From Impatiens glandulifera (taxonomy: Eukaryota; Streptophyta; Magnoliopsida; Ericales; Balsaminaceae): DNA of 64,000 bases. This document shows positions 50,339 to 55,377 of the stretch, one piece after another. How positions within the stretch are numbered: the first letter of the stretch is position 1; every line of letters starts with the position of its first letter. The notes beneath the pieces are model-generated. The model saw only the letters and a list, made by a program, of their open reading frames with translations, searched no databases and was not told where the DNA came from. The position numbers and the translations under genes are program-made. The stretch lies in the NCBI RefSeq assembly GCF_907164915.1, contig NC_061867.1, forward strand, positions 29,323,751 to 29,387,750, written 5' to 3'.

Positions 50339-50513
50339 TGTTAAAATAATAACTAACGGTTTATTAAACTGTTAATTAGTTAGTAACTGATTAGTTAGTT
50401 TCGTTAATTAGTTAGTATTGAACTCCTATATAAGGGAGATATGTAATTATTTGAAACAAATTTTTTAATAATACAATTTCAATTTACACTTATTCTTCTT
50501 CAAGATTTTAACA
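50339..50513 (+). repeat. Left LTR of the composite element
   Basis: 175 bp, TGTTAAAATAATAACTAACG to CAAGATTTTAACA. It includes a TATATAAGGGAG promoter-like word near 50430. Only one difference from the right LTR (55203-55377) was noticed by eye. Confidence 0.95.
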
Positions 50514-50520
50514 TGGTATC

Positions 50521-51822
50521 TATTAGGATCTAGGTCGCGGCTGGAGGACCGGGGTTGGGCCGGTTAGCGCGCCTCACTCAAATGTGGTGATTAATCCGGT
50601 TAGAGATTAACACCGGGGTTTCAATACTACACAAACTGTCACAAACCCTTGAACTAGGTTCAAGCGCGGAAGAGGTTTGTTTCAGGTTGAAGCAGTACAC
50701 TCACAAGATAGGTAGAACCGGTTTTGGATAGGACAGGTTTAGAAATTGATGGGTCGGCTTTTGTAACTTGGTGATTCGGTTTAGGTAGTGTAGAGTCGGT
50801 TAGAGCGGTGTAGGTAGGTTAGTACAGGTCGGTTAGAATGTAGAACCAGCAGAAAGTAAATAACAAGACAGATTTTTATGGATGTTCGGAGATAAAACTC
50901 CTACGTCACCACTTCCTCTCAAAACCGCGAAAAGGATATTCACTAAGGAATACAAATACAATCCGATCGAGACTTATTTCCTGCTCGATAACACCTGTAC
51001 AATTTACACCGAAATTGTAAATACACACTTCAACTTTAGCACTTAGGCTTTTTCTAGAGAGAGAACACAATCTTATCACTTGTAAATTAATTGCTCGTTG
51101 TGTCACACTTGTGTCCTGCATTTACTCCTCTTCTCCTGCTCCTTTTATAGGTAAAATATGCCAACGGTCATATTTCACTTCCTTGAATTTGATTGGCTGA
51201 GTAGAGGTTCAGTGATTCAGACCTGGCGGTCAACTTTTCAAACCTGGCGGTCAACCTCACAGAGTTGGCAGTCTGTTCTTCCAGTATATAGGACAAACCG
51301 GCTGGGTTTGTCTTTTACTCAATGTGGTAACTGTCTGTTAGACAGTTGTCTGTACTTGGAAGATTACCTTTCTGATTTATCCTGAAGTGGAAAGATCTTG
51401 TAGGACTGTCTTCTGCAGCCTGCAGACTTTCCTCAGACTTGTATGAATATGGAAATGTTCAGTCTGTTCCTTTGGTATCATTCTCAACAGATACCCGAAG
51501 TATCTTCTTATGCTGGTCGGTCATTTGAATTTTCACCGGATGGCTTCCGGTGTGATTGGTTTAACCGGACGGCTTCCGGTTATTTTCTTTGGCTTCAGGT
51601 CGATTGATGACCGACTATCTGATGTTTCCGGCCTTCAGTCTTGAGCGGTCATGTTTCTGGTCGGTTTGATAGTTTGAGCGGTTGAGCTTCTTAACCGATT
51701 GAGTAATCTGACCGGCCGGTTTTGTCAAACCGGTTGGTTACTTTGACTGGTCCGGTTCTTTGTTCCTGCATGGAAGGTTTATTTGTGTTTAGTTCTGTTG
51801 ACCGGTCTAATTTTATCTAACA
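50521..51822 (-). mobile_element. Solo LTR in the primer site of the composite
   Basis: A 1,302 bp LTR flanked by perfect GTATC duplications (50516-50520 and 51823-51827). Left out, the host reads TGGTATCAGAGCTCC, an intact primer site. On the minus strand it starts TGTTAGATAAAATTAGACC and ends GATCCTAATA. It has the TATGGATGTTCGGAG block (plus reading, near 50876) shared with the other LTRs. Its U3 (about 51500-51800) is rich in ACCGG / CCGGTT words. Younger than the composite element. Confidence 0.92.
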
Positions 51823-51993
51823 GTATCAGAGCTCCAAGTTTAAGAGTTCTTTGAGGGTTTTCGCTGCCTCTGCTAGGGAAAAAGTAGCCGCTGGTGGAGG
51901 GCTTTATTCTATATTAGATTATTATTGTTGAAGAAGATTTTCAAGAACATTTTCAAGCATTAGAGATGCCAAGTTGAATGAAATTAAAAGAGA

Positions 51994-52218
51994 GAAGAGA
52001 TTGCTAAATACAAGCAAGCTTTAGAGAGGAAGAAGAATCTGGCTGAGAAAGCTAATACTAAGGCCGCCATTAAAGCTCTGAAGGATGAAGAAAAGAAACT
52101 CAAGGAACGTATATATGAACGTTTGGAAGCCCTTGATGCTTCAACTGCAGAGAAGTGTGCTGGCCACCTCTTTCATTCCCAGATCGGCCTTTATTGCCTT
52201 CAGATCATCCGAGAATAG
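51994..52218 (+). pseudogene. Captured fragment of proton pump interactor-like gene
   Basis: The plus-strand frame reads EEIAKYKQALERKKNLAEKA, NTKAAIKALKDEEKKLKER and stops at TAG 52216-52218. This lysine/glutamate/alanine-rich coiled coil matches the C-terminal part of plant proton pump interactor (PPI) proteins, which bind the regulatory end of the plasma-membrane H+-ATPase. Similarity fades after about 52125. The match is to a low-complexity region, so the assignment is moderate. It is in sense with the left half of the composite element. Confidence 0.6.
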
Positions 52219-52272
52219 GACCTCCGCCACTAGCTTCCGATAATACCCTTCAATCTCTACTCGGTTTGGATC

Positions 52273-52789: not shown

Positions 52790-53284
52790 TGAGGGCTTCG
52801 ATTTGGTGATTTGGATTGACGGCTAAGGCTCAGGTTATGCTAATCAAGAATATGTCAGATGGTTAGATGAGTAGAGTGGGTTTTGCTGTGAAGGTGGCGA
52901 TGTTGAAAATTGTGAAGATTTCATGAATTAACTCGTCAAGAGGATGGGTTGTTTTTGAAGATGATGAAATGACGATATGATTCGTCAAGACCAGGAAGAA
53001 TGCTAAATTGGCTTCTTTGAAAAATATTTGTTGATGCAAGCACGGTTTTGTCGGATCAAAATGAGATTCTTAAAGTTCTTCAAAATCGTGGAGAAAGATT
53101 CCCTTGCAATAAAAAAAACGGAGCTTGCTGAATTGGGCTTGCTGGGCTGTCTGTGATGGGTAGCTGAAAAAAATAGAGTTTACTGAATTGGGTTTGCTCA
53201 ATTGTCTAAATTGGATAGCTAAAAAAATGAAGCTTGCTGAATTGGGCTTGCTGAAGACGATGACTGCATGATCAGCTTAATGAT
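52790..53284 (+). other. Tail region of the left half, with 55 bp repeats
   Basis: No host gene is recognised. Three copies of a roughly 55 bp unit (GCTTGCTGAATTGGGCTTGC... AAATTGGATAGCTAAAAAAA) lie at about 53110-53265. The stretch from about 52975 to 53280 matches 53620-53380 in inverted orientation, the tail of the right half. Confidence 0.75.
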
Positions 53285-53323
53285 TAAACCGTTAGTTATT
53301 ATTTTAACATCCTCCTCTCAAGG
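53285..53323 (-). repeat. Internal 3' LTR remnant and polypurine tract
   Basis: On the minus strand, CCTTGAGAGGAGGA (53323-53310), a polypurine tract, is followed directly by the first 25 bases of the LTR, TGTTAAAATAATAACTAACG and GTTTA (53309-53285). This is the 3' end of the right half, cut off where it joins the left half. Confidence 0.88.
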
Positions 53324-53752
53324 AGAAACGTAGTAGAAACAAAGTTTCACCTTGATAAAACAAGTCGATGAAACATTAAGCTACGATCATGCAGTCATCG
53401 TCTTCAGCAAGCCCAATTCAACAAGCTTCATTTTTTCCGAACTACCCAATATAGATAGCTCAATCTTCGTTAGTCCAATCCACAATAGTCATCATTAATT
53501 GTTTTTTCTTCATTAGTCACCAGCTTTCAACCTTTGTAGCTTTTGTTTTTTTTGTTCAAAGAAAGCCCATTTAGCATTCTTTTTGGTATTGATGAATCTT
53601 GTCGACAAACCATTTTTTTTATAACAAAGGAATCGCATCCGTAAGTTCACTTATACTATTTCCTTCTTCCCTTCGATCAGCTTCTTAACCCAATCGCACA
53701 AGAGAAACCATCAACTCCATTATCTCATTATCCACCCACCTCATGATTCTCC

Positions 53753-54650
53753 TTAATCAGTGATATGCACTAACCATGTTAAATTTAGAGAAACCACATT
53801 CCTGCACTTGTCAATACAAAGAAGTCCCTCATTAGTTAGAATCTGAGCACCACATAGATCCAAGAATCCAAGTTGGGTTAATGAAGATAGAACTTTATGA
53901 GAATCATCAATAAAGCTCGAAAGTGCATAGAGATTCAGGCTGTAGAGAGAACGACACTTTAGCAATATGTACTATAAGACATCATCTGTTAGATTTATGC
54001 ATCTAGTGAGATTCAAATGATCCAAATTACTATAGTTGTCAGCAATAATTTTTATGCCTTTGTCCGTTATGTTATTGCATCCACTCAAGTTCAAATCAAC
54101 TATGCGTTTGCAACTCTTCACCAAAAGCTTTATGGATTGATCTGTAACCTTCAAACTCAAGTAGATGGAAAATACTTTCAAATTTGAACATGCAATTGTG
54201 ATAGCTTGGATTCTCTTGTCAGATATCTTTTGACAACCATTCAGATTTATAAGCTCCGGAATTCCAAGAAAATCTGAGTATTTGCTTTTAAGGATATCAA
54301 GATGCGTGTCTTCAATATCTTGACCAATTCAAGGATGATTTGTTTCACATTTTGTACCTTGACGGAGATAAAGCAGAGACGAGTCGATCATCACCAGCAT
54401 TGGTTATTTCATGAAAATCAAGACCCAGCCAAAGAGAGGAATAAGAAATGAGAGTGCGATGAATCGAGGGGCTGACGAGTAGAAGAGAGATGAGATCTCT
54501 TTGAGACAGCCTCGTACTTACAATCTTGAGAACTCTGGGTATTGTTTAGCGGTTCCAGGCGTATTGTTTGTCTTCCTCTCCCTTTTCCTCATCTATCTCT
54601 TCTTCCATTTCGTGTAACTCGATCATTGTTCTTTCTTCTTCTTCAGCCAT
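53753..54650 (-). pseudogene. Captured F-box/LRR protein gene (retrocopy)
   Basis: The minus strand holds a nearly contiguous copy of a plant F-box/leucine-rich-repeat gene of the At3g58530 type, a putative substrate receptor of SCF ubiquitin ligases. It starts at the ATG at 54650 (MAEEEERTMIELHEMEEEID). The F-box part is VLKIVSTRLSQRDLISLLLV, followed by LWLGLDFHEI. The repeats are NLNGCQKISDKRIQAI, DLNLSGCNNITDKGIKI, HLNLTRCINLTD, SLNLYALSSF and LGFLDLCGAQILT, ending SLNLTWLVHITD at a stop. It has a stop after QYAWNR, frameshifts near 54330 and 54000, and no introns, so it is an mRNA-derived copy. It includes some 5' leader and lacks the last repeats. Confidence 0.9.
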
Positions 54651-55202
54651 TCGAAAACCTCCTCCAGAAAGTTCTCCATCAGTCTTGCAAGCAATCTAGA
54701 AAGATTTCCTTTATTTCAGGAACAGCAGGGAAGAATCTCATCTTGATCTTCTTCGTCAGTATTCTTGCTAATAGTTTCATTATCCCTCAAAACAAATATG
54801 TCATCAGCATTTGAATCTCATATATCTCCTTCTTCCATTTTAGAGTCACCACTTACTCTTCTCCTCCTCATCTTAATCTTGATCTTTTTCGCTACTCTTG
54901 CGAATTTCTTTCTTCTCTATCTTTTCGTCACCATTCTTGATTGTATCATCTCTATTATCAATGTCAACAAACACCTAGTTCATTTGGCTTACTAATGTCA
55001 GCACTCTTGATTGCATCATGACCCATATATTCAACAATGGAAAATCTCTCAATTATGTGCATTCAACTAATTCATCTTTCATTTATTCCACTTCTTCTTC
55101 AATAGTAATAATACAATAAAACCCTCCACCAGTAGCTTCTCTGGCCACCAGCAGAGGCAGCGGAAACTCTTCAAGATTTTTAACCTTGAAGCTCTGATAC
55201 CA
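54651..55202 (-). other. 5' leader of the right half and unassigned sequence
   Basis: 54651-54720 is probably the 5' leader of the captured F-box mRNA. 54720-55110 is C/T-rich with many TCTTCTTC words; it may derive from another captured transcript, but no family is recognised. 55115-55202 is the inverted counterpart of the left leader (51828-51935) and ends in the primer site GCTCTGATACCA (plus reading). Confidence 0.6.
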
Positions 55203-55377
55203 TGTTAAAATAATAACTAACGGTTTATTAAACCGTTAATTAGTTAGTAACTGATTAGTTAGTTTCGTTAATTAGTTAGTATTGAACTCCTATATAAGGG
55301 AGATATGTAATTATTTGAAACAAATTTTTTAATAATACAATTTCAATTTACACTTATTCTTCTTCAAGATTTTAACA
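55203..55377 (+). repeat. Right LTR of the composite element
   Basis: 175 bp, in the same orientation as 50339-50513, followed by the GAATT duplication. It is flanked inside by a primer site that faces left, opposite to what a normal 3' LTR would have. Confidence 0.95.

Follow-up and report, generated by a model that had tools for sequence, protein, structure and literature searches.

Template-switch complexes of long terminal repeat (LTR) retrotransposons have been described from Triticeae, rice and maize, where two related cores are separated by a third LTR, and a direct three-LTR complex with a single target-site duplication (TSD) is a published mark of such switching (PMC1950507). Recombination between family members is also known for ONSEN/ATCOPIA78, where the available parts of the reports ascribe it to co-packaged RNAs in reverse transcription and describe no strand reversal (PMC5668417, PMC4279814); there, five of 32 new ONSEN copies had a single parent, while the remaining 27 are ascribed by the authors to recombination for which co-packaged RNAs are the most likely partners (PMC5668417). 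Here we describe a composite element at positions 50339–55377 of a 64,000-nt window of Impatiens glandulifera NC_061867.1 (the whole stretch analysed, to which all coordinates refer unless a contig prefix C1, C2 or C5 is given). Like the published complexes it joins two related LTR elements within a single 5-bp TSD and between highly similar outer LTRs; unlike them its cores are inverted, one of them is incomplete, and 25 bp of inverted LTR stand in place of a full internal LTR (PMC1950507). In carrying segments of several host genes it also resembles plant LTR elements that capture genes, such as maize Bs1, and it differs from these, as far as the consulted text describes them, in fusing two separate capture sets, FabG and F-box/LRR (leucine-rich repeat), in opposite directions (PMC13317346). 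Within the open-access literature, which leaves most subscription papers outside the search, we found no inverted LTR composite with a single TSD. We consider it probable that two members of one family were joined during reverse transcription.

Anatomy of the composite and its joints

The composite is bounded on both sides by GAATT (50334–50338 and 55378–55382, plus strand). Its outer repeats, LTR1 (50339–50513) and LTR2 (55203–55377), are direct on the plus strand, 175 bp each and identical at 174 of 175 positions, the sole difference being T/C at base 32, at a CpG. LTR1 starts with TGTTAAAAT and ends with ATTTTAACA, a 9-bp terminal inverted repeat. The left half, A, reads rightward (plus strand) and the right half, B, leftward (minus strand). 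Direct TG...CA LTRs with a 5-bp TSD are those of a copia-type LTR retrotransposon, and a primer-binding site adjoins the 5′ LTR, split by a later insert: its first seven bases (TGGTATC, 50514–50520) are separated from the remainder (GTATCAGAGC at 51823) by 1302 bp on the minus strand (50521–51822), with LTR-like TG...TA ends in minus-strand reading and a duplicated GTATC; it is a probable solo LTR of another family. Half A continues on the plus strand with the rest of the primer site and the leader (51823–51940), a coding-like piece (51993–52160), a captured piece of plastid FabG (3-oxoacyl-ACP reductase; 52161–52684) and a tail (52953–53282) with repeats of about 54 bp at 53112–53255. This tail stops about 60 bp short of the position of the polypurine tract in relatives, and A has no such tract. 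Half B, on the minus strand, runs from its primer site (GCTCTGATACCA, 55191–55202) and leader (55082–55202) through an interior with a captured F-box/LRR gene piece (At3g58530 type, 53773–54637) and a tail (53310–53640) to the polypurine tract (53310–53323) and 25 bp of LTR.

The original prediction, a tail-to-tail retroelement that moved as one unit, had named the direct, nearly identical, GAATT-flanked LTRs, two primer sites facing each other, inverted leaders, inverted tails around 53.3 kb, and a right half in which the polypurine tract is retained together with 25 bp of 3′ LTR. These features were recovered: a single GAATT pair encloses the unit, the leaders are inverted with 77% identity across about 115 bp, and the inverted tails match, although only in patches (98% over the innermost 52 bp, 53222–53273 against 53385–53436, and about 75% further out). 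Snap-back copying as the source of the 98% inner identity was rejected; relative L013 has A's sequence there, so this identity lies within the family range and is no sign of fold-back copying. Two further points were absent from the prediction, namely the spliced host gene copies in both halves and the position of the middle reversal on a palindrome in U3.

The primer site of B faces left, directly against the direct LTR2, so that the upstream neighbour of LTR2 is an inverted primer site and not the polypurine tract that precedes a copia-type 3′ LTR. Because this tract is absent beside LTR2, we describe the composite as derived from family members rather than as an intact member itself, and for the same reason it can probably no longer copy itself.

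The strand reverses twice, each time at a stretch of LTR that is complementary to itself: the middle reversal lies on a 21-nt palindrome and the right one on the 9-nt terminal inverted repeat. At the middle junction (53283–53309, minus strand) the inverted fragment 53285–53309 is identical at 25 of 25 positions to LTR bases 1–25 and is followed by the inverted polypurine tract; a 21-nt query from the LTR start, allowing up to three mismatches, matched the window only here and at the starts of the two outer LTRs (0.00 in shuffles). Bases 16–36 of the LTR, computed on LTR2, from which LTR1 differs at base 32, form a palindrome at 20 of 21 positions centred on base 26, and the inverted fragment breaks at base 25. 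A palindrome of at least 18 of 21 positions was present in 54 of 62 LTRs of fetched relatives, compared with 26 of 2000 windows drawn at random from the same sequence. At this joint, the twelve bases ATTAAACCGTTA can also be read as direct LTR bases 25–36, and A lacks the two bases just before them, which are both present in all 23 other aligned rows (three of these rows repeat a place already in the set). Missing here are about 60 bp of A tail, the A polypurine tract and U3 bases 1–24. At the right joint, CCA is followed by TGTTAAAAT; the LTR starts with the same nine bases that are obtained by inverting its end, and because of this repeat the joint can be placed only to within nine bases. 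Half B accordingly begins at, or at most nine bases from, its primer site.

The right joint occurs once in the 654-Mb assembly at up to two mismatches (control, 0), which leaves the composite unsupported as a multicopy element; no search was aimed at further instances of the middle joint. A looser right-joint pattern (TGTW, up to three mismatches) gave 300 matches (158 forward, 142 reverse) versus one in the reversed control. Among the 100 matches listed of these 300 were the window itself, three places at one mismatch, 40 at two and 56 at three. Of the three one-mismatch places, two had no family match and one had a 46-bp leader match; visual inspection assigns all three to other families, as joints between primer site and LTR. 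Some of the three-mismatch places are ordinary joints of the family itself, such as C1:8150958, the 5′ LTR end of L010.

A family of short elements with captured host genes

Relatives were collected by genome searches in which only the best candidates were scored; the LTR query gave 336 first-look candidates, and among the 40 of these that were scored the composite's own two LTRs were followed by a match of 93%. Counts refer to 40 fetched stretches with family sequence, from batches of 20, 19 and 1. L064, which is the F-box gene, was excluded from the family set, and L003–L008 and L031–L049, which largely overlap counted stretches, were left out of the counts except where named. Twenty stretches were examined for structure, of which 18 had two LTRs and two had one. 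The two-LTR relatives showed a matching 5-bp duplication (14/18), an exact primer site TGGTATCAGAGC (11/18, the others being variants), which we take to be that of initiator-Met tRNA, and an exact polypurine tract TCCTTGAGGGGAGGA adjoining the 3′ LTR (9/18, the others again variants). Fifteen of the 18 are 1.8–2.7 kb long, the exceptions being L016 (1.3 kb), L020 (3.0 kb) and L022 (7.1 kb). The last of these (C2:5981274–5988559) has family LTRs and three open reading frames (ORFs), with Pfam rve (integrase) followed by RVT_2 (reverse transcriptase), the copia order, in separate ORFs; it is broken, no family leader was matched in it, and it may be an autonomous relative.

The interiors of the relatives differ. 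Ten sense-strand open frames were picked from nine elements, and six of them had Pfam matches above the cut-off (histone, ribosomal L7Ae, GFO/IDH/MocA, DUF936, G-patch and MAP65); chalcone isomerase like and P21-Rho-binding domains scored just below it, and two frames had no match. Different host-gene pieces are carried by L012, L015, L023, L027, L056 and L063, which marks the family as gene-capturing. Both halves of the composite belong to one family of short, non-autonomous, gene-capturing elements.

Ordinary relatives, with two LTRs and a TSD, exist for both halves, namely L070 and L015 for A and L050 for B. L070 is the best A relative (95% over 208 bp, 93% over 481 bp), L015 matches A at 87% over 216 bp and 93% over 520 bp, rising to 96.5% within a local stretch of 173 bp, and L050 matches B at 94% over 679 bp and 92% over 963 bp. 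The comparisons support an origin of the two halves from two related members of the family.

The intron-free host exons inside the composite recall those of Bs1-type elements. The best match of the F-box piece of B is a protein of Impatiens glandulifera at 85% identity, the next best being 67%; the piece extends from the start codon over residues 1–292 of 363 with a short gap at 92–99. The host gene (C5:20552939–20554922) aligns to B in nine blocks that are spaced 77–303 bp apart in the gene, and its eight introns are absent from B. The piece is found at six loci (the composite and L050–L054), so that a single capture was multiplied afterwards, transposition being the simplest means. The FabG piece of A, identified by a PDB search, aligns to the host gene (C1:38806514–38807512) in five blocks, or six with a last short one, and likewise contains no introns; part of it is carried by L015 and L070. 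At window position 52571, TTTGGAG is followed in A directly by GAATAAC; a cryptic GT donor within an exon was thus spliced to the acceptor past a skipped exon, and this splice with exon skipping accounts for the absence of residues ~62–86 relative to PDB 1edo. The captured FabG is thus the fossil of an aberrant mRNA, and since introns are absent and splice joins present, both captures passed through spliced RNA. Pfam gave no match above the cut-off for the first six pieces searched, and an ABCF/GCN20-like label for 51993–52160 was dropped for want of a supporting database match. With several members carrying different host-gene pieces, and both tested captures made via spliced RNA, the family offers a natural set for the study of mRNA capture by LTR elements.

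Origin of the composite

Four observations favour joining during reverse transcription: only one TSD bounds the unit, self-complementary LTR sequence underlies the middle and the right reversal alike, the B half is truncated at its primer site or right beside it, and at least one clean direct heterodimer exists among the relatives. This heterodimer is a direct three-LTR complex at C5:16422840–16427206 (L063, L072) with the single TSD CCTCA, outer LTRs 96% alike and a middle LTR at 87–89%, whose sequence fits the template-switch criteria of Sabot and Schulman. A second one, at C2:12927204–12930914 (L074, L017), has the single TSD TTAAG, outer LTRs 90% alike and a middle-right identity of 95%; for a third candidate at C1:10.23 Mb, no upstream LTR was found within the 2.6 kb fetched. 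The original prediction had proposed that two related RNAs were joined by strand transfer, and had suggested a genome search with the LTR to find the parents and further composites. Two related members, a right joint that occurs once and the two three-LTR complexes agree with the proposal; no parents were found among the best scored candidates, the best relatives being at 92–95%.

We infer that the two RNAs were co-packaged and that both switches, in the order given here, took place before integration. RNAs A and B would have been packaged together, and the growing A plus strand (LTR, primer site, leader, FabG, tail) would have been handed to B at the self-complementary U3 segment. Copying of B would then have run backwards as minus-strand synthesis, passing the polypurine tract, the tail, the F-box piece and the leader and ending at the B primer site. 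Minus strands halt near the primer site before the second transfer. At this point the first bases of U5 (TGTTAAAAT in minus-strand reading) equal the U3 tip, and the strand may have switched there to a minus-strand LTR, so that LTR2 would be copied in direct orientation and an integrase-competent end restored; integration would have produced the GAATT duplication. The last ~60 bp of the A tail, the A polypurine tract and U3 bases 1–24 may have been passed over when the strand switched, or lost afterwards by deletion at an unstable palindrome. If the composite was formed in this way, strand reversal between two packaged RNAs can yield an integrated product, an outcome not seen in the published three-LTR complexes.

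Several observations weigh against this reading. Each junction feature can also be obtained by DNA-level repair or deletion, and the loss of the A polypurine tract requires an extra step. The C2 complex is ambiguous, being less clean as a template-switch case. No A, B or LTR copy above ~95% over at least 200 bp was present among the best scored candidates of the assembly. Moreover, the link between polypurine tract and U3 in B is unexplained: the F-box-bearing relatives with a readable LTR start all have TGTA (4/4), versus TGTT in the inverted fragment, as in the outer LTRs, and an exact TGTT start occurs in seven of 71 LTR matches, some of which are truncated.

A nested insertion followed by two deletions is unlikely, though the most probable of the alternatives; here B, carrying LTRs of its own, would have inserted in reverse orientation into the tail of an A already integrated. 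The original prediction had excluded nesting because no opposite LTR is found at 55203, an argument that is not airtight: a nested inverted B would put two direct copies of TGTTAAAAT on the right, at the end of its inverted 5′ LTR and at the start of the A 3′ LTR, and owing to the 9-bp inverted repeat at the LTR ends a single short-repeat deletion between them would yield exactly the observed joint, taking with it the B LTR, the last tail bases of A and the A polypurine tract. Small deletions inside elements are common in plants, and the composite also took up the later 1302-bp insertion. However, one insertion and two deletions are needed, together removing both B LTRs; the second deletion, on the left, must leave just 25 bp of the other B LTR and end at the centre of the U3 palindrome, and the 1/175 difference between the outer LTRs leaves little time, though a single difference dates loosely.

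Copying at the DNA level, by synthesis-dependent repair or replication template switching, appears rather improbable. An integrated A that had broken close to its 3′ end would be repaired from a B elsewhere, with copying that would begin in the inverted U3 and finish by re-annealing via TGTTAAAAT at the A 3′ LTR. Both short-homology joints would then stem from one event, and the outer LTRs and the TSD would be A's own. On the other hand, it would be a coincidence for the copied tract to start at the primer site and stop just inside U3, other joined forms with a single TSD occur in the family, and a chromosomal donor would be expected at high identity, whereas the best long B match in the assembly is 92–94%; the missing donor weighs little, since joining in reverse transcription is likewise without parents. 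Starting from a three-LTR complex, an inversion of B alone between its flanking 9-bp repeats would explain the right joint; it is not favoured because the LTR 3′ end, and not U3 bases 1–25, would be expected beside the inverted polypurine tract. An assembly artefact is very improbable: the two joints are located within LTRs, and palindromes can give rise to fold-back artefacts in reads, but the TSDs agree, the outer LTRs are a normal pair, and the B half duplicates no other locus (best long match 94%) from which it could have been borrowed within the assembly.

Predicted hairpin and the surrounding window

The RNA of 53205–53455 is predicted to fold at −122.6 kcal/mol (z = −18.5, 0/200 shuffles as good), which supports a strong hairpin of the innermost tails. 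The long RNA hairpin of the original prediction is thereby shortened: strong pairing covers about 80 bp, and the leaders are merely 77% alike. At least one perfect 21-mer is shared with the hairpin arms by 34 of the 40 fetched stretches, the exceptions (L024, L025, L052, L058, L060 and L068) including several partial fetches. The locus of the F-box gene has 188 21-mers in common with the B half.

Like Mu killer of maize, in the parts of the report consulted, the composite is an inverted derivative of a transposon family with a possible hairpin RNA that would match that family, here an inverted duplication that folds as a hairpin in silico (PMC3440606). Unlike the composite, which is known from sequence alone, Mu killer derives from a DNA transposon and, according to the same text, silences it; the inverted arms of the composite are also short or diverged by comparison (PMC3440606). 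It is speculative, and we think it quite doubtful, that LTR self-complementarity gives reverse transcription a fold-back route that fuses two members tail-to-tail in one insertion and so yields a promoter-bearing hairpin locus matching both the family and captured host genes, a retrotransposon counterpart of Mu killer. If the composite did form in reverse transcription, it would show how inverted-repeat loci capable of silencing a family could originate in one step.

Elsewhere in the window, the interval 25106–35018 consists of a ~2.02-kb unit repeated in tandem about five times, with roughly 97% similarity between copies. Two probable copia elements lie on the minus strand, one at 2318–12165, whose LTR-like ends measure 2.15 kb and are 94% alike and whose gag-like ORF lies at 8902–9762, and one at 36093–41154 with LTR-like ends 87.6% alike and a gag-like ORF at 38847–39758, both ORFs being named by eye. 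The segment 56001–58000 is extremely AT-rich (14% GC).

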